Shown one piece after another: positions 2,486 to 45,483 of a stretch of DNA of 45,553 nucleotides. Within the stretch, counting starts at the first letter, position 1, and each line of letters opens with the position of its first letter. The position numbers were made by a program, and so were the translations under genes. Below the pieces are notes generated by a model. That model saw only the letters and a program-made list of their open reading frames with translations. It was not told the origin of the DNA and ran no database searches. This DNA comes from Waterburya agarophytonicola KI4 (GTDB lineage: Bacteria; Cyanobacteriota; Cyanobacteriia; Cyanobacteriales; Xenococcaceae), in assembly GCF_020640915.1 (NCBI RefSeq), contig NZ_JADWDC010000037.1, forward strand, positions 1 to 45,553, written 5' to 3'.

Positions 2486-4216
2486 TTAATTTGCTTGAAA
2501 CTGCCTGGCATAAAAACTGGCATATATGCCATGTTTATTTAATAGTTCTTGATGATTGCCAGATTCGACTATTTGACCTTTCTCTAATACCAAAATACGG
2601 TCGGCTCGACGAACTGTAGCTAAACGATGAGCAATGACAAATACAGTACGCTCTTGCATAATTCTTTCTAAAGCTTCTTGTACCAAATCTTCTGATTCGG
2701 AGTCTAAGGCTGAAGTTGCTTCGTCCAAAATTAGAATGGGAGGATTTAATAAGATAGCGCGAGCAATAGTAATTCTTTGTCTTTGTCCCCCCGATAGATT
2801 TACGCCTCTTTCTCCTACATAAGTAAAATAACCTTGAGATAATTCGCTAATAAACTGATGAGCATTAGCAATTTTAGCTGCTTTCTCTATACCTTGTAGA
2901 TCCAAATCGGTCTTGCCAAAGGCAATATTTTGGGCAATCGTGCCAGAGAATAAAGTTGTTTCTTGAGGTACAATTCCTATTTGCTGTCTCAAGCTTTTGA
3001 GGGTAACATTCTTAATATTTACTCCATCAATTAAAATATCTCCTTGATCAACATTGTAGAAACGAGGTAAAAGATTAACTAAAGTTGATTTGCCCGCACC
3101 AGAAGATCCTACTAAAGCAATGGTTTCTCCAGGGCTAGCAGTTAGACTCAGATTATTAATTACTGGAGTCTGGGGAACATAAGCAAAACTGACAGAATTA
3201 TATTCAACTTTACCCGTAACAACCTGTAAAGCGATCGCATTTTTTGGCTCAGTTACACTCGGCTCGATTGCTAACAATTCAAAAATTTTGTCAGCAGATG
3301 CTTGTCCTTCTTTGAAGCTATTGTAGTTATTAGTAGTGTGAGTAATCGGATCGATTAATAAAGCGACTCCAGCCAAATAACTGACAAATTCTTTTCCTGT
3401 CAGATTGTTCTGAGAAATTTGCCAACCACCCAAGAAAAAAATAGCAACCACACTCATCAAAGTCAGGAAACCAACTACAACAATTTGGAATGCTTTGGCT
3501 TTTTCTGCTTGATATTTCGCTTGACAATTACCTTCCGCTTCTTGGGCAAAACGAGACAATTCATAATCTTCTGCTGCAAAAGCTTGGACTAAACGAATCC
3601 CGCCTAAAACTTCAGTTAATAATGCCGATAAATTAGAAATTCTGTTTTGACTGCGCCGAAAATACTGTAGAAGCCTTTCGCCAAATGCGCCAATTATTAT
3701 TGCCATTAAAGGTGCTAAAACCAAGGTTGCCATCGTCAATTGCCAGTTGAGCCACAGCATATATCCCAACACCACAATTAACTGTAAAATACAAGGAACA
3801 AAATCATGAAAAAACTGATTGACTACTTCCCCAATGCGATCGATATCTTCTGTTAGGCGATAAGTGAGATCTCCTGTTTTAGCTACTTCAAAATAATTGA
3901 GACTCAGCTTTTGTAAATGACTATAAACAACTTTGCGCAAGTTTAAAGCAATAGTCAAAGCAGCCTTTGCCATCAAAGAATCTTGTCCGTACTGCACAAT
4001 ACCTTTGACAATAAAAACAACTGCGGTTAATCCTGCCAATCTAGCAATACTATTGGTATCTCCTCGACCAATATATTCAGTCATTTCTCCTGCCAACCAT
4101 GCCTGAATTGGCCAGAGAGTGGTAAACAAAAGAGTACAAATAAAAGCCAGGGTTATCGTCGTACTTTGGGGAAGAATAAAAGGAATAAGCTGTAAATAGC
4201 TAGAGCGATTCTTCAA
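2486..4216 (-). CDS. ABC exporter half-transporter (MsbA/LmrA type), permease fused to ATPase
   Basis: A 576-residue type I ABC exporter. Residues 1-310 form a six-helix transmembrane domain, followed by a nucleotide-binding domain with Walker A GSSGAGKST (370-378), signature LSGGQ (474-478), Walker B with DEATSALD (498-505) and the switch His530. Such proteins work as homodimers or heterodimers, exporting lipids, lipopeptides or drugs from the inner membrane; the substrate cannot be read here. The start is TTG at 4216, because an in-frame stop lies three codons upstream and the next Met (residue 47) would remove a helix. It is co-directional with the QueC-like gene but separated by about 230 bases, so cotranscription is uncertain. 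Confidence 0.9.
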   Translation of the reverse strand: MKNRSSYLQLIPFILPQSTTITLAFICTLLFTTLWPIQAWLAGEMTEYIGRGDTNSIARLAGLTAVVFIVKGIVQYGQDSLMAKAALTIALNLRKVVYSHLQKLSLNYFEVAKTGDLTYRLTEDIDRIGEVVNQFFHDFVPCILQLIVVLGYMLWLNWQLTMATLVLAPLMAIIIGAFGERLLQYFRRSQNRISNLSALLTEVLGGIRLVQAFAAEDYELSRFAQEAEGNCQAKYQAEKAKAFQIVVVGFLTLMSVVAIFFLGGWQISQNNLTGKEFVSYLAGVALLIDPITHTTNNYNSFKEGQASADKIFELLAIEPSVTEPKNAIALQVVTGKVEYNSVSFAYVPQTPVINNLSLTASPGETIALVGSSGAGKSTLVNLLPRFYNVDQGDILIDGVNIKNVTLKSLRQQIGIVPQETTLFSGTIAQNIAFGKTDLDLQGIEKAAKIANAHQFISELSQGYFTYVGERGVNLSGGQRQRITIARAILLNPPILILDEATSALDSESEDLVQEALERIMQERTVFVIAHRLATVRRADRILVLEKGQIVESGNHQELLNKHGIYASFYARQFQAN

Positions 4217-4542
4217 AATTCATCTTGGGGGATAGATATTCGTCCTCAGTCTACACTAGAGTTTATCTATTTTGATTGCCTTATTTCCTTGAGTCAATTT
4301 AGTTATTAATTAATATATCTAAAAATATATCTAAAAAAAATTGACAAAAAAAAAGTGCGTCATGTACGAGCGCACCCTTCAAGATTGGTAAATAATAATG
4401 AATATCTAGTCTTAAATTTATTATTCCACAATTTACTAAATATTTCGATTTGTTCATAAAAGCTTGTCCTAAAATCGTTTATCTTCATCTCTGCTTTAAA
4501 AAACTCTGGATTTTAGGGCGATGTTAGTTTTAAATTGGGGAT
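4217..4542. other. Spacer holding the cruA terminator
   Basis: A+T-rich, with a short repeat of TATATCTAAAAA near 4312-4335. Apart from the terminator at 4345-4376 and presumably the promoter of the ABC exporter, I see no gene. Confidence 0.5.
4345..4376 (-). terminator. Rho-independent terminator for cruA
   Basis: Stem of GTGCG 4355-4359 with CGCAC 4371-4375 and, read on the minus strand, a run of nine T directly after it. It lies about 170 bases beyond the cruA stop. Confidence 0.7.
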
Positions 4543-6522
4543 TCACCTTAATTGATAATTTAAACTTAATAACTTCAGCCACAAGCCTGAATTGTGTTTT
4601 TCTAACCAAGGCTGCAACAATTTCAGCCAGCCAGGAAACCAACGACTCAAAAGTAAATTTCGCAAAGCATCTTTATTGAAAGAGGAATACGAACCCAGCC
4701 AACGAATCATATCTTTGCTTCCTGCCATCTGCCAGATCCACACTAAGAGTGCGGGGTTTTTGCGGGCTGCAATTAGGGCTAGTCTAGTAAAAGTAAGCCA
4801 GTCGGTACGATCTTTGATGAAAGTATCTGCTACTTCAGGAGGTTCGTCTGCCAGTAGTCCAAAAAAAGTATTTAACATGGAGTTAATTCGCTGGGGAGGT
4901 AAGGTTTTCCCCGTTGGTACCATCATGCCCTTGGAAAATAACCAAGTTACTGAAATATTGCTTTGATAGGCTCTAATTTGGTTCAAGTGCTTAGCAGCAA
5001 GTAAGTCATGCTGTAATGCCGTATTTAGAAGATTAGTCAATCTTTCCAAATTACGAACTAACGAACCAAAACCAGTAAAGATCAAAGGAGATTGTAAAGA
5101 AGCCGCATCACCAATTGCCAGCAAGCGATCGAAGGCTACAGTGCGATCGCTGTCACTAGTACTAAAATGTCCGGGGATATAGCCAAAAGTAGGCTTTTTC
5201 CAAACTAGTTTCTCCATGTCGCAACGGCGATACTCAGGAAGGATAGTAAAGAAATCTTCATACATTTCTAGTAAAGATCCTGGGTTTTCTGGATCTACCT
5301 GATGATAATGGAAGAGATAAAAAGTTAATTCTCCATTTCCCCCAGGAAATAATTCCCAAATAAGTTGTCTTCCCCTAGATATATCTCCGTGAGAATTTAA
5401 AACATCGCCATAATCTCGATCCCATACTTCATCGGCAAATCCGCTTTCAATTACCGCCCCCACCGTAGGACATACACTATCAAAAGTACGCCCCCCGTTT
5501 AGTTGCCAAGCAATGGGGGAAGCTGTACCCATTGCATCGATTAATAGTCTTCCTGTGGCTTGTTTGCTGCTTTGGGTGGGTAGATGAGTTAATTTGACTG
5601 TAACTTCTTGAGGGTTAATATCAGCACGAACAAATTCTGTTTCATCCCAAATATCTCCTCCTGCTTGGCATAGTTTATCGCCACAAAAACGGAGCAGTTT
5701 TTCGGCATCGATCGCCACATTTAAAACTGTAGGGGTGTGCAATACTTTAGCTTTAAGATGAGGTGGGTTATAAGCATCAAAAAACTTACTAAAACCATCT
5801 ATATATTCTGCTGCAATGACTGATTCAAATTCATCGGGAGTAAACAAACCCAGATTTATCAAGCTTTGAAATTCGTCGCGGGATATATTCCACTCTCGAT
5901 TCATTCTACCGAAGGGTAATCTTTCAATTAAGAGTACTCGATAGCCTTTTTGCGCCATTACCGCAGCATGAATGACTCCTAAGGCACCACCCACATAGAT
6001 AAGATCGTAATCATATTCTACTTCTCGATCTACGGTGCGATCGCTTTTGAAAATTACTTGCTGTGGTTTCTGAGGATTATTTACACCATCGCGCCAACGT
6101 TTTTCCCACCAATAAACTCGATTGAGATCGTACTCTCCCTTGGGCATTTTCTGAAAATATTTTACTGTTTTGGGATAAGCTTGCGCCAAAGCTTCAAAAA
6201 TATTCTGTTGCGATAAATCTATTTCTGGAGGAATGGGATATTTTTGGGGGAATGCTTGACGTATTTCTGTCAATAAATGTTGCTCAATTTGCTTAGCTTG
6301 AGCGATCGCTTTTTTTCCCCACTGAAAGATTTTGAGATAAGTTGTGCGTTGTAGTTGCCAGACGAAGATTGATAATTCGCTATCGGTGACATCAAACTGG
6401 AGAAGAATGCCATCTTGAGTAGTAGTTTTTTTTCCCTGGTGGGGTTGCCAGGTATTTTGTAACCAATTCCGAACTCCTTCAATGTCAGGAGTAGGTATTT
6501 CTGTGTATAGTAATTCTTGCAT
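4543..6522 (-). CDS. cruA: Lycopene cyclase CruA-type FAD-dependent oxidoreductase
   Basis: A 659-residue flavoprotein. A roughly 165-residue N-terminal extension precedes a Rossmann FAD-binding segment, YDLIYVGGALGVIHAAVMA (about 172-190), followed by an acidic strand end (LLIER) that would hold the ribose. CruA cyclises the ends of lycopene to give gamma- and beta-carotene; CruP is a shorter paralogue. The length and the conserved block around RMNREWNISRDEFQSLI favour CruA over CruP, but I cannot align it. The start is ATG at 6522. The gene is alone in its transcription unit and ends in its own terminator; carotenoid genes are not clustered here, as is usual for cyanobacteria. Confidence 0.75.
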   Translation of the reverse strand: MQELLYTEIPTPDIEGVRNWLQNTWQPHQGKKTTTQDGILLQFDVTDSELSIFVWQLQRTTYLKIFQWGKKAIAQAKQIEQHLLTEIRQAFPQKYPIPPEIDLSQQNIFEALAQAYPKTVKYFQKMPKGEYDLNRVYWWEKRWRDGVNNPQKPQQVIFKSDRTVDREVEYDYDLIYVGGALGVIHAAVMAQKGYRVLLIERLPFGRMNREWNISRDEFQSLINLGLFTPDEFESVIAAEYIDGFSKFFDAYNPPHLKAKVLHTPTVLNVAIDAEKLLRFCGDKLCQAGGDIWDETEFVRADINPQEVTVKLTHLPTQSSKQATGRLLIDAMGTASPIAWQLNGGRTFDSVCPTVGAVIESGFADEVWDRDYGDVLNSHGDISRGRQLIWELFPGGNGELTFYLFHYHQVDPENPGSLLEMYEDFFTILPEYRRCDMEKLVWKKPTFGYIPGHFSTSDSDRTVAFDRLLAIGDAASLQSPLIFTGFGSLVRNLERLTNLLNTALQHDLLAAKHLNQIRAYQSNISVTWLFSKGMMVPTGKTLPPQRINSMLNTFFGLLADEPPEVADTFIKDRTDWLTFTRLALIAARKNPALLVWIWQMAGSKDMIRWLGSYSSFNKDALRNLLLSRWFPGWLKLLQPWLEKHNSGLWLKLLSLNYQLR

Positions 6523-37426: not shown

Positions 37427-39673
37427 ATGAACTCATCCAGCAATGGTAAAAGTGATCGCCCTAATAATGGTGAAAATTCCAATCTTCCCGATAAGATTGC
37501 GGTGTTGATCGTAGACGATCAGAAAATGATTAGGGAAGGATTAAAAGCCCTAGTTAAAACTGAAGAAGATATTGAAATAGTTGGTGTTGCCGAAAATGGC
37601 GAACACGCCGTCAAACAAGTAGAATCCCTCAAACCAGATGTTGTCTTAATGGACATGGAAATGCCTGGTATGAATGGGATGGAAGCTACAAAACTAATTT
37701 GCCAGCGTTTCCCCGATGTCAAAGTATTAGTTCTCAGTACCTTCGATACTCAAGAATATGTTTCTCGTTCTCTCAGTTCTGGCGCAATGGGTTACTTGCT
37801 GAAAGGAACTCCCGCCAAAGAATTAACTGACGCGATTAGATCGGTTCATCGCGGTTACGCTCAAATTGGGCCAGGAATCTATCGCAACCTATCATCCCTG
37901 CCTCAAATAGAAGAAGCTCAAAAACTTCCTGCAATGTCTTCTATTAGTCTGACACCTCCCGAAGAAAAGAGTCGTCCAGAACGTTCTTATCCCAAGGGAG
38001 AATTGGTTACGACAAATTCCGCTAAAGAATTGGATGCTTTAGTTAAGCGTAATCCTGCTTCTGCTAAAACCCGTAAGTTCGAGCAAACAGTAATTTTACG
38101 CCGTTCCCCTAAATGGTCTAGATATACTATTTGGGGAATTATGGGAGTCAGCGCATTTGCGGTTATTTGGTCTTATTTTGCCAAAATAGAACAGGTAATT
38201 CCCGCCCAAGGACAAATACAACCTTCAGGAAAAGTACAGGAAATACAAGTCCCCACCAACGGGGTAGTACAGGAAGTCAAAGTAGAAGAAGGGCAAAGAG
38301 TCGAAAAAGGTGATGTCCTACTACTTTTAGATGCAACAACTTCTCAGGCGCAAGTTGACTCTCTCAATCAAGTCCGCAAATCTTTGGTTCAAGAAAATAA
38401 ATTTTATCGAGCTTTGTTGGCAGGAGATATTGATGCGAGTAATATAGATGGCGCGATCGCATCTTTAGAAATACCTAGAGAAATTGCCTACCTGACCCGC
38501 AATAGAGCCGAGCTCAAAGACGAAAACGAACTGTTTCAAAATCTTTTGGGTAATTCTAATAGAGCCATGAGTCCCGAGCAACAGGCTAGATTGGAAACTT
38601 CTCAAGCAGATATCAGCGAAAGAACAACTTCTGCTAGGTTGGAAGTCGAACAGCTAGAAAAACAGCTAGAGCAAAATAAAATTCAGGTAGAAGATACTAG
38701 AGCGCAGCTAGCCACAGGAAAGCAGAACCTTAAAGAAATCAAAGAGCGTAACACGGAAGCCATGACTCAAGCCAAAGAAAGCTTGGCAATTGAAGAACAA
38801 ACTCTCAAGGCTATTTTGCCCGTATTTAAAGAGGGCGGACTTTCTAAAATTCAAGTCGATCAACAGCAACAAAGAATCAACGATCGCAAAGCTGCCATCA
38901 ATGACGCTCTTAAAGAGGGTAACTTAGAACGCGATCGCCAGCAACAGCAAGTAACAACCCTGCAAGCAGAAATTCAACGTCTGCTCCAAGAAGAACAAAG
39001 ATTAACTCTCGATATTTCCCAAGCTAGACAGCAGTTAAATAACACTACTACCCTATCTAAAAAAGATTTATTAGATCAAATTGCGGCTAACCGCAAACGA
39101 CTTTCAGAGATTGATAGTCAACTCAACAAAACTATTGTTGAAAACGACAAACGTATTGCTGAAATTAACAGCCAAGTTAGTAGTGCCGCGATGAATCTCA
39201 AGTATCAAACCATTACAGCCCCCGTCACTGGAGATGTGTTTGACCTAAGAGCCTATTCTGGCTACGTTCCCCCTTCTGGTCAAAATGCCCCACCAGTATT
39301 AAAAATTGTTCCGACGGAAAATTTGGTTGCGGAGATATTTATCAGCCCTAAAGACATTGGCTTTGTCAAAAAAGGTATGGACACTGACGTGCGTATTAGT
39401 GCTTTCAACTATAGCGACTATGGCGATATTGACGGCAAGGTGAAGTTTATCAGTGCTAGTGCCTTAGAACCCGAACCACCCTATGATTTTTTCCGTTATG
39501 TGGCTAAAGTCGATTTGGAACAAGACTATTTAATAATTAATGGTGAGAAACAATATATCCAGCCTGGAATGGAAGTTCAAGCCAATGTGAGAATTAATAA
39601 GGATCGTACTGTCTTCCAGTTATTTACCAGTAAATATAAAGGTGGAATTGATAAATTCCAAGAAGTAGAATAA
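37427..39673 (+). CDS. Response-regulator receiver domain fused to an HlyD-type secretion adaptor
   Basis: A single 748-codon frame. Residues about 24-150 are a NarL-type receiver: acidic pair Asp30-Asp31, phospho-acceptor Asp76 (VVLMDMEMPGMNG), STFD switch region and Lys126 (YLLKGTPAKEL). In place of the usual DNA-binding domain there is a polar linker (about 155-230), a transmembrane helix (about 232-251), then an HlyD/membrane-fusion protein: half-lipoyl strand (VQEIQVPTNGVVQEVKVEEGQRVEKGDVLLLLDA), a long coiled coil (about 385-600) and the second half with barrel domains (YQTITAPVTGDVFDL to the end). HlyD proteins link an inner-membrane ABC exporter to an outer-membrane TolC. The receiver would lie in the cytoplasm, so secretion may be phosphorylation-gated. 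No ABC partner is adjacent. Confidence 0.92.
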   Translation: MNSSSNGKSDRPNNGENSNLPDKIAVLIVDDQKMIREGLKALVKTEEDIEIVGVAENGEHAVKQVESLKPDVVLMDMEMPGMNGMEATKLICQRFPDVKVLVLSTFDTQEYVSRSLSSGAMGYLLKGTPAKELTDAIRSVHRGYAQIGPGIYRNLSSLPQIEEAQKLPAMSSISLTPPEEKSRPERSYPKGELVTTNSAKELDALVKRNPASAKTRKFEQTVILRRSPKWSRYTIWGIMGVSAFAVIWSYFAKIEQVIPAQGQIQPSGKVQEIQVPTNGVVQEVKVEEGQRVEKGDVLLLLDATTSQAQVDSLNQVRKSLVQENKFYRALLAGDIDASNIDGAIASLEIPREIAYLTRNRAELKDENELFQNLLGNSNRAMSPEQQARLETSQADISERTTSARLEVEQLEKQLEQNKIQVEDTRAQLATGKQNLKEIKERNTEAMTQAKESLAIEEQTLKAILPVFKEGGLSKIQVDQQQQRINDRKAAINDALKEGNLERDRQQQQVTTLQAEIQRLLQEEQRLTLDISQARQQLNNTTTLSKKDLLDQIAANRKRLSEIDSQLNKTIVENDKRIAEINSQVSSAAMNLKYQTITAPVTGDVFDLRAYSGYVPPSGQNAPPVLKIVPTENLVAEIFISPKDIGFVKKGMDTDVRISAFNYSDYGDIDGKVKFISASALEPEPPYDFFRYVAKVDLEQDYLIINGEKQYIQPGMEVQANVRINKDRTVFQLFTSKYKGGIDKFQEVE

Positions 39674-43221: not shown

Positions 43222-45483
43222 ATGCTGCCTACTAATTTTGCTAGTTGTGAATTTAAAGTTAGTACTACCATCGTGGTAACTTTAGGCTTTTTTTTGCATT
43301 GTAACGATGTGCGATCGCAGGTAATTAGCGACCAAACAGCCAATACTCAAGTTAAGGTAATCGATAATACCGCCCATATTATTGGAGGTACGCAAGCTGG
43401 AGACAATCTTTTTCATAGCTTTAAGCAATTTTCTTTAGAGACAAATGGAATTGCTAGTTTTGACCATAGTGCGGATATTAATAATATATTTACCCGCATT
43501 ACGGGGGGGAATATTTCGGAAATTGATGGTTTAATTCGGACTCAAAATGACGCTAATTTGTTTTTGATTAACCCAGCGGGAATTATTTTTGGTGCAAATG
43601 CCCAGCTAGATGTGGGAGGATCTTTTATCGCTACCACAGCAGAGAAAACGATCTTTGAAGATGGTCAAGAATTTAGTGCGGTTGCTCCCACAGAACCACC
43701 TATTTTAACTATTAGTTCTCCTATTGGATTGCAGTATGGTGTGAATGGAGAAATTGCAGTATTGCCCAATGCCAATCGAGGAGGTAACAATCCTACTGCT
43801 GGCTTGAGCGTGAAATCGGGAAATACTTTGGCATTATTAGGAGGGGATATTACGATTAATCGTAATAATCTTAATGCGATCGCTAGTAATGTTGAAATTA
43901 GCAGTGTTAGAAGTGGCAAAATCGATCTACTACAAAACGATCGCGATTGGCAGTTTGGTTACGATCGCGCTTTAGAGTACGGCAGAATTGATTTTGATAA
44001 TAGAGCGTTGATTGATAGTAGTGGAGTTGTCAATTTTCGGGGAAAAACGATTAATTTTACGGCTAGTTCGGGAATACGTAACTTTACCGATCTTAGTGGT
44101 AATGGAGGAATTATTAAGCTAGAGGCTACCGAATCAGTAAATTTGGATAGTAGCTTTCTCTTTACTCAAGTAGGGCAACTAGGCTCGAATTTAGAACAAG
44201 CGATCGCAGGTATGGGGGGTGATATCTTTATTGAAGCGGTCAATATTTCTCTTGCTAATGGTTCGATTATTTCTGCTGGTACATTAAGCGAAGGTGCAGG
44301 GGGGAATATCACCCTAGAAGCTTTAGAGACTATAGAATTATCGAGTATCTTGGACCGTAATCCATCTATTGTGAGTACCTCTACTCAGGGAATGGGAGAT
44401 GGAGGACAAATAGAAGTGAACGCGGGTAAATTGATTATTGGCGATGGCAGTCAAATTCAAGCCCTAGCAGGGGGTGGTGCGGGGGGAACAATTACGGTCA
44501 ATGCCACCGAATCTATCGATATATCGGGAACGGGAATTTTGCGATCACAAGATAGGTCGGGCAATTTGACGGAAACTCTCTTAAATAGTGGTTTTGCTGC
44601 TTCTTCGGGAATTGAAAATCTACCATTAGAACAACAACCCCCAGGAGAAAGCGGAAGTTTAATTATGAATACCCCAGATTTAACCATAGAAGATTCGGCG
44701 CGGATTTCTGTAAGTAATTATGGTCTGGCTAATGCAGGAGATATTAAGCTAAATATTGGTAGCTTGAGCTTAGATACCGCAGGAGAAATTATCGCCAACA
44801 CTGCATCGGGGGAAGGAGGTTCAATTAATATTGTGGCTGAAAATGCGATTACTTTAGAAAATAACAGTTCTGTCTCTACTACCGCAGAACAAGATGGTAA
44901 TGGGGGCAATATTTTTATCGAAGCAGATAATTTACTTTTATTAGAATCCGATCGCCTGAGTGCGGATGCTCAACAGGGAAGCGGAGGTAATATTAGCATT
45001 GATACTCAAGGTTTTTTTATCGATCCTAACAGTACTATTACCGCTAGTTCCGCAGTTGAAACCCAAGAAGGCACGATTAAAATAATTACTTTAGACCTGA
45101 ATTCTAGACTATTTATGGGGTTTGAAGAATATTCGCCTCTAGTAGCAGAAGATTATATTCGTACGGGCTGTGGCGCGGGGGAAGATTTGGCTAAAAATAG
45201 CTTTCGTAATATTGGACGGGGTGGTATTCCTTATAACCCTACCCAAGAAATGGCAAATTTGGATACCTTAAAGGATTTTGGCAAGGCTAACAAAAGTTCA
45301 AAATCGTTTCCAACTAAGATTAAAAATACTTTTGAGCATTCTCCATCAAGCGATCGCTCTATAATATCTGAAGCTAATGCTTGGAAAGTAAATTCCCAGG
45401 GAAAAATAGAATTAGTTGCCCAACAAAATATCAATACGTTTAATTATTTATCTAATTATTTATCTGTTTGTCGAACTAATTAA
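43222..45483 (+). CDS. Two-partner secretion exoprotein with filamentous-haemagglutinin-type TPS domain
   Basis: A 753-residue exported protein. A signal peptide (about 1-32, VVTLGFFLHCNDVRSQ) leads to the TPS domain (about 35-300): NTQVKVIDNTAHIIGGTQAGDNLFHSFKQFSL, NIFTRITGGNISEIDGLI and FLINPAGIIFGANAQLDVGGSFIATTA are the cyanobacterial version of the HpmA/FhaB domain that a TpsB barrel recognises. The rest is a long beta helix of GGxI(x)IxA-type repeats, ending in a C-terminal segment with RTGCGAGED. It probably forms a surface fibre or adhesin. No TpsB gene is in the window; it could follow just beyond the end. Confidence 0.93.
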   Translation: MLPTNFASCEFKVSTTIVVTLGFFLHCNDVRSQVISDQTANTQVKVIDNTAHIIGGTQAGDNLFHSFKQFSLETNGIASFDHSADINNIFTRITGGNISEIDGLIRTQNDANLFLINPAGIIFGANAQLDVGGSFIATTAEKTIFEDGQEFSAVAPTEPPILTISSPIGLQYGVNGEIAVLPNANRGGNNPTAGLSVKSGNTLALLGGDITINRNNLNAIASNVEISSVRSGKIDLLQNDRDWQFGYDRALEYGRIDFDNRALIDSSGVVNFRGKTINFTASSGIRNFTDLSGNGGIIKLEATESVNLDSSFLFTQVGQLGSNLEQAIAGMGGDIFIEAVNISLANGSIISAGTLSEGAGGNITLEALETIELSSILDRNPSIVSTSTQGMGDGGQIEVNAGKLIIGDGSQIQALAGGGAGGTITVNATESIDISGTGILRSQDRSGNLTETLLNSGFAASSGIENLPLEQQPPGESGSLIMNTPDLTIEDSARISVSNYGLANAGDIKLNIGSLSLDTAGEIIANTASGEGGSINIVAENAITLENNSSVSTTAEQDGNGGNIFIEADNLLLLESDRLSADAQQGSGGNISIDTQGFFIDPNSTITASSAVETQEGTIKIITLDLNSRLFMGFEEYSPLVAEDYIRTGCGAGEDLAKNSFRNIGRGGIPYNPTQEMANLDTLKDFGKANKSSKSFPTKIKNTFEHSPSSDRSIISEANAWKVNSQGKIELVAQQNINTFNYLSNYLSVCRTN

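Follow-up and report, generated by a model that had tools for sequence, protein, structure and literature searches.

Two-component systems are generally regarded as acting on transcription, and secretion channels as being controlled through expression. In the accessible text of PMC8277102, most characterized response regulators are DNA-binding and are assumed to act on transcription. Membrane fusion proteins (MFPs) of the HlyD type from type I secretion systems (T1SS; PF13437/PF13533; TIGR01843) are built from a transmembrane (TM) helix, lipoyl and barrel halves, and a long hairpin, all of which recur in the protein described here. Among the matches listed for open-access literature, a set with few subscription papers, the accessible text describes no receiver-HlyD fusion. 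In a subset of the papers that contain both "receiver domain" and "HlyD" (PMC8277102, PMC10781874, PMC13125312, PMC12487129, PMC3899966, and PMC8921679), the accessible passages place them in separate proteins or in references.

In this study, a 45,553-nucleotide stretch of DNA from the cyanobacterium Waterburya agarophytonicola KI4 (the window) was analyzed. Its initial annotation had described a gene in which a complete NarL-type receiver is joined to a HlyD-type adaptor in place of a DNA-binding output, with the receiver predicted in the cytoplasm, where its phosphorylation could directly gate assembly of the export channel, a post-translational output of a two-component pathway.

A receiver-adaptor fusion in the Pleurocapsa group

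The fusion is encoded by a single ATG-to-stop frame (Table 1). Response_reg was matched in the Pfam scan at aa 26-138 (E = 1.7e-28; 99.4 bits versus a cut-off of 30.2), and the site is complete, with DD30/31, D76, S104, and K126 all present. Biotin_lipoyl_2 (PF13533) at aa 272-302 (E = 1.3e-8) and HlyD_3 (PF13437) at aa 595-706 (E = 6.9e-20) both scored above their cut-offs and, with the helix and hairpin, place the protein in the HlyD family, as had been proposed. The best NCBIfam match was type_I_hlyD (TIGR01843; E = 3.3e-60), but its 204.2 bits lie slightly below the cut-off of 208.65; we therefore assign the protein to the HlyD family on its Pfam matches and call it no more than T1SS-like, on the basis of the adaptor tree and the gene order of its relatives. 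NarL/UvrY-type regulators ranked second in NCBIfam, over approximately aa 22-169. The Pfam scan of the protein gave no match to GerE, the LuxR/GerE helix-turn-helix (HTH), and the fusion, lacking an HTH, is not classified among NarL-family transcription factors; we regard it as a response regulator with a transport output.

Table 1. Positions of the fusion gene and its parts in the window
Feature	Position	Strand	Basis
REC-TM-HlyD fusion gene, 748 aa	37427..39673	+	ORF, Pfam, NCBIfam, model
NarL-type receiver, aa 24-147; D30/D31, D76 (phospho-acceptor), S104, K126	37496..37867	+	PF00072, model, orthologues
Linker, aa 148-229; model confidence low to ~aa 228	37868..38113	+	Model
Inner-membrane helix, aa 230-251	38114..38179	+	Model; hydropathy in most orthologues
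HlyD/membrane-fusion module: lipoyl half 272-302, coiled-coil hairpin 304-592, barrel 595-706	38180..39673	+	Pfam, NCBIfam, model, Foldseek

The AlphaFold model is of modest confidence (pLDDT 71, pTM 0.35) and readable domain by domain only. It contains the receiver fold, a poorly predicted stretch at aa 148-228 in the disordered linker, the helix, and the long hairpin. In Foldseek the model matched LiaR/DesR receivers and EmrA/MacA adaptors; its low pTM permits no claim about docking. The end of the linker (RKFEQTV...SPKWSR) has a counterpart in receiver-less adaptors. A hydropathy scan at a threshold of 1.6 detected no helix in the window protein itself and found one in most orthologues. The stretch before the helix (AKTRKFEQTVILRRSPKWSR) is rich in Lys and Arg, and the stretch just after it is not. 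By the positive-inside rule for membrane topology, a single TM helix preceded by many Lys/Arg residues would leave the N terminus inside, and the receiver is therefore probably cytoplasmic, as the initial annotation had supposed.

The search set comprised 60 genomes, including the window genome, of which 27 belong to its cyanobacterial family (the Pleurocapsa group). Receiver and adaptor share one stop-free frame in 26 of these 27; one copy among the 26, that of G019, is truncated by a contig edge at aa 577, and G021, the remaining genome, holds aa 4-259 only, also at a contig edge. Carriers include Xenococcus sp. PCC 7305, Pleurocapsales LEGE 06147, Pleurocapsa metagenome-assembled genomes (MAGs), and Hyella patelloides, whose copy is cut by a contig end. 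The fusion is thus real and not a sequencing or assembly error. The two outcomes that would have undone the initial annotation, namely, a sequencing error joining two genes and a consistent separation of the halves in relatives, are both contradicted by this join in a single frame across the family. Its account of a complete receiver holds as well. D76 and K126 are kept in all 26 aligned orthologues. The acidic pair is DD in 25/26; the gap in G003 arose because the scripted start took an ATG downstream of the pair. The class A frames of L022 (G003) and L042 (Hyellaceae CSU_1_1) open nine codons before the acidic pair, beginning with ATT, and none of those nine codons is ATG, GTG, or TTG. At G001:C425:245-1285, aa 182-528 of the window protein are matched a second time, in a stretch interrupted by two stops.

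Selection was compared across ten orthologue pairs. The dN/dS ratio was 0.029 to 0.135 for the receiver, 0.141 to 0.620 for the linker (aa 149-214), and 0.054 to 0.116 for the HlyD part in the nine pairs where it was computable; these ratios are rough, as the pairs share branches and so are not independent, and dS is above 1 in many cases. The receiver ratio was below that of the linker in every pair (10/10). Constraint on the receiver roughly equals that on the HlyD part and does not exceed it.

Origin of the fusion and its putative ABC partner

Matches to the window protein at E ≤ 1e-120 were found in 26 of 386 sampled cyanobacterial genomes. Two of these belong to the window's family and match from aa 1 and 7, and in the other 24 the match begins no earlier than aa 174 and the frames are 572 to 632 aa long, so that no receiver is present. 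The four receiver-less adaptors inspected at the N terminus have disordered-looking tails, two of them clearly Asn/Gly-rich. An adaptor tree was built from 46 hand-picked rows (31 with a receiver and 15 without) over 481 columns. In this tree, the window class (support, 100/99) nests inside receiver-less T1SS-like adaptors. A single clade of all receiver-bearing adaptors was rejected (p-AU = 4.3e-46), and with it a single origin of all receiver-HlyD fusions. The receiver state changes eight times on the tree, with at least three changes forced by well-supported branches; in this analysis the split G003 copy is treated as receiver-less, REC_C_G025 and REC_B1_G008c are long branches, and class B2 is not one group.

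As the window protein nests among receiver-less adaptors with disordered-looking tails, the adaptor seems to have gained a receiver. The initial annotation had a DNA-binding output replaced by an adaptor, but a simple swap of an HTH for HlyD does not describe the change. G014, G022, and G002 additionally contain a receiver-less adaptor of the same clade near its own ABC gene; an adaptor of this type thus works with no receiver attached. G044 holds both adaptor types, each without one. In the polysaccharide-type set, the REC-MFP gene of Hydrococcus (L051) lies between a phosphoglucomutase-family gene and a glycosyltransferase gene, and G296 has the same gene order with an MFP that carries no receiver. 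The class C fusion also occurs in G140 (another family), Chamaesiphon, and other contigs, and is rare, with 2/386 genomes at E ≤ 1e-50, one of them the window genome. This survey of architectures covered the sampled cyanobacterial genomes and named contigs.

The fusion gene in the window has no adjacent ABC gene. The nearest receiver-less adaptors that were read (G052, G044, and G033) directly follow a gene for an ABC protein of ~1,000 aa, and the G033 protein, the one scanned, scores for cNMP-binding, C39, ABC membrane, and ATPase domains. All four family genomes read (G000, G007, G008, and G013) contain a PPIase-ABC gene pair without an adjacent HlyD gene, and the ABC protein of this pair is 61 to 64% identical to that of G052. 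In G000, the products of the pair match cNMP_binding, Peptidase_C39, ABC_membrane, ABC_tran, and Rotamase (PPIC-type PPIase). As the closest receiver-less adaptors adjoin this ABC family, the adaptor-less ABC gene is the candidate partner, namely, the cNMP-binding, C39-like protein at G000:C67 (L215:5155-8184). The window protein would then be the relocated, receiver-bearing adaptor of the PPIase-ABC transporter.

In an alignment of 12 ABC proteins, the position of the C39-like Cys is occupied by Ser in G000 (L215), Ile in G007 and G008, and Val in G013; outside the family it is Ala in G052 and G044, and G033 keeps Cys. The four class B ABC proteins aligned keep DCG in the C39 domain. The candidate partner is HlyB-like in that its C39-like domain carries no catalytic Cys. 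HlyB likewise has such a domain in the accessible text of PMC8277102, in agreement with the four family copies. An ABC-like ORF of 576 aa inside the window (2486-4216) is not favored as the partner, being a weak match (33% over query aa 424-986). Elsewhere in the window, a 753-aa ORF at 43222-45483 resembles, from a reading of its sequence, a filamentous-hemagglutinin-like two-partner-secretion exoprotein.

Membrane-type receivers

A search of the window genome gave 94 matching places, of which roughly the twenty best were opened. In this subset, a receiver of this type is joined to a membrane or export part in 16 proteins, and the fusion noted in the initial annotation is thus not a singleton. 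Three of the 16 are HlyD fusions: that of the window and those on C40 (638 aa) and C73 (719 aa), the last encoded directly beside a C39 ABC gene. On C29, a receiver with a HlyD_D23/RND-type adaptor (585 aa) is encoded beside a glycosyltransferase gene, which we take to be PelF-like. A 635-aa receiver protein with two TM helices lies among glycosyltransferase- and flippase-like ORFs and can tentatively be called Wzz-like; it had no Pfam Wzz match, and all 50 Foldseek matches listed are of the receiver type by description. The others are a ferric-reductase-like membrane protein, an MFS transporter, eight tail-anchored receivers, and a receiver-BON protein (BON, 25.3 bits versus a cut-off of 27), TM calls for receiver proteins resting on hydropathy. 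The receiver-MFS transporter at L127:1543-3225 (G000:C80; 561 aa) has nine hydropathy peaks. Three of the matches opened (C88, C79, and C24) are of the DNA-binding type.

In other family genomes, close receivers (E ≤ 1e-22) were counted in G007 (14), G008 (10), and G013 (11), and a TM peak follows the receiver in 12/14, 9/10, and 9/11 of them, respectively. Each of five genomes outside the family has none or one, of DNA-binding length. A C39 ABC gene immediately follows one of the receiver-HlyD genes in G007. In G019, two short ORFs precede a receiver-HlyD gene, and one of them scores as a nitrile hydratase alpha chain. The short ORF L232:801-1103, with a similar ORF at 211-513, gives this score at 1.8e-13; it is followed by a receiver-HlyD gene as well as a transporter-like gene. 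Nitrile-hydratase-like leaders are known from NHLP-type RiPP precursors, and L232:801-1103 is presumably an NHLP-type leader.

Several further arrangements were observed. A 904-aa receiver protein in G007 (L186:840-3551), a relative of the 635-aa protein with sub-cut-off matches to Wzz and GNVR and a ParA-like ATPase, resembles a polysaccharide co-polymerase with a tyrosine-kinase-like end. The receiver-HlyD fusions at L121:2930-5086 and L220:2915-4891 have a degenerate acidic pair (DH and DN) and directly follow an ABC gene; a further small gene lies upstream (HTH by Pfam in L121), and the gene order is similar in both genomes. In G003, a class B receiver and HlyD part lie side by side in separate frames (L276:2616-2996 and 3053-4603).

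For a comparison of receiver signatures, 117 receivers in chosen loci were reduced to 106 by dropping ten below 50 bits and one duplicate, with L221 (23.7 bits) kept by hand. Rows were labeled by length, TM, and Pfam, and one Acaryochloris row formed a class of its own. For the 25 DNA-binding-type rows, a scan confirmed GerE in only a part, and the label of the others came from their length and lack of TM. DNA-binding-type rows had Thr at position 104 in all cases (25/25) and Arg at D+2 in 22/25, with an acidic residue there in none. In membrane-type rows, D+2 was acidic in 73/80 and position 104 was Ser in 67/80; the rows are related and do not count as independent events. The window receiver, with Glu at D+2 and Ser at 104, follows the latter pattern, and this signature provides a handle for finding more membrane receivers.

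The phospho-acceptor is not kept in all of these proteins. Asn replaces it in all four receivers of the receiver-TM-BON type (L131:5111-6127, L164, L165, and L246; BON was scanned only in L131, where it fell just below the cut-off), with the Lys and the acidic pair retained; judged from these residues, this type may be a conserved pseudo-receiver at the membrane. In class B1, the phospho-Asp is missing in 2/11 (Gly or Asn). Because of these losses, retention of D76 in the window class is not automatic. In the receiver tree (127 columns), class A (99), the BON type (99), and FR (84) each form one group; most deep forks, including the order among classes, lack resolution. It is possible, though we put this forward tentatively, that a receiver subfamily with mostly acidic D+2 and Ser left gene regulation and moved to the envelope through repeated independent attachment to different export and membrane machines, giving a post-translational "membrane regulon" through which many exporters could be set at once by one kinase or a few.

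Proposed signaling to the adaptor and relation to known systems

HisKA_3 kinases are the usual partners of NarL-type regulators. As the window genome has only two of them, the one on C88, which lies beside a NarL-HTH regulator, was an attractive candidate. However, a C88-like kinase (E ≤ 1e-40) is absent from four of the 27 family genomes (G003, G011, G014, and G024), all of which carry the fusion, and this excludes it as an obligatory kinase. G011, G014, and G024, each with the fusion, gave no HisKA_3 match of any kind in a survey limited to the HisKA_3 type. A regular-expression scan detected no kinase-like ORF in seven of nine stretches around fusion copies, several of them cut short; the two exceptions are the window, with such ORFs ~29 kb from the fusion next to an OmpR-like regulator, and L042, where the distance is ~4.5 kb. 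Of the two partners that the initial annotation had proposed to look for, an ABC protein could thus be suggested, but no HisKA_3 kinase is common to all fusion carriers.

Phospho-gated export through a receiver on the adaptor is the explanation we consider likely. An active NarL-type receiver would have been added to the cytoplasmic N-terminal tail of a T1SS-like HlyD adaptor, and a histidine kinase encoded elsewhere would phosphorylate Asp76. The phosphorylated receiver would change conformation or dimerize, which could alter docking of the adaptor's cytoplasmic end on the ABC transporter or the substrate, so that export would be switched on or off without new transcription. In favor of this explanation are the conservation of the fusion and of D76 and K126 within the family, the constraint on the receiver, the receiver-less relatives encoded next to the ABC family of the putative partner, and the repeated receiver gain by other export adaptors. 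Weighing against it are the receiver-less adaptors of the same clade in G014, G022, and G002, the degenerate receivers of some related fusions, the seven stretches with no kinase-like ORF, and the three carriers in which no HisKA_3 kinase was matched.

Other roles for the receiver can be envisaged. As a docking or localization module, it would recruit the adaptor to a scaffold or a kinase, or organize the export machine by constitutive dimerization, and phosphorylation would matter little. Such a role would fit the paralogous membrane receivers that were kept with an altered phospho-site (Asn in 4/4 of the BON type; Gly or Asn in 2/11 of class B1), but it is rather unlikely for the window class, which keeps D76 and K126 in 26/26 and whose receiver is strongly constrained. 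Reverse signaling, in which the receiver reports the state of the channel by sequestering phosphate or the kinase, as a sink or as feedback, and export goes unregulated, appears distinctly improbable. Competition for phosphate is conceivable because at least 16 membrane receivers face two HisKA_3 kinases in the genome; however, the repeated independent fusion of receivers to many different export parts argues for an effect on the part to which they are fused.

The degenerate receivers of some class B1 members would be expected if neutral domain shuffling had left the receiver as a passenger without function. For the window protein this is very improbable, given a dN/dS below that of the linker in 10/10 pairs and of the same order as that of the HlyD part, and a conserved phospho-site. 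The chance that an error of sequencing or assembly joined two genes is practically negligible. Nothing points to it within the window class, the irregularities being the split class B copy (L276) and the ambiguous class A start of G003, and the same join recurs in 26/27 family genomes and in separate assemblies, such as those of Xenococcus sp. PCC 7305 and Pleurocapsales LEGE 06147.

Members of the window's family form sheaths and baeocytes. The fusion of receivers to parts of export machines suggests that Pleurocapsa-group cells may regulate secretion through phosphorylation of the machinery and not via gene expression. With a receiver inside the adaptor, the signal would reach the machine directly, which raises the question of whether aspartate phosphorylation gates a tripartite exporter. 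Repeated gain of receivers by adaptors for protein, RiPP-type, and polysaccharide export hints at a general solution in the family, and it also raises the question of how kinase specificity is kept among at least 16 related receivers.

Compared with T1SS-type HlyD proteins, the window protein adds an N-terminal receiver and its own gene is not beside an ABC gene, although its nearest relatives adjoin a HlyB-like ABC gene with cNMP-binding and C39-like domains. Its receiver resembles those of the NarL/FixJ regulators UvrY, MctR, DesR, and LiaR in sequence, fold, and DD-D-S/T-K site. Unlike these regulators, it has no LuxR/GerE HTH, carries Glu at D+2 and Ser at 104, and is probably membrane-bound. 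MetOD3 of methanogens, an archaeal domain of one or two genera, is a loose precedent in that it too ties a receiver protein to the membrane; the accessible text of PMC5847659 mentions no export adaptor. Two-component regulation of tripartite exporters, as covered in the accessible text of PMC8277102, is the same type of control, and in the window protein the receiver sits in the adaptor itself.
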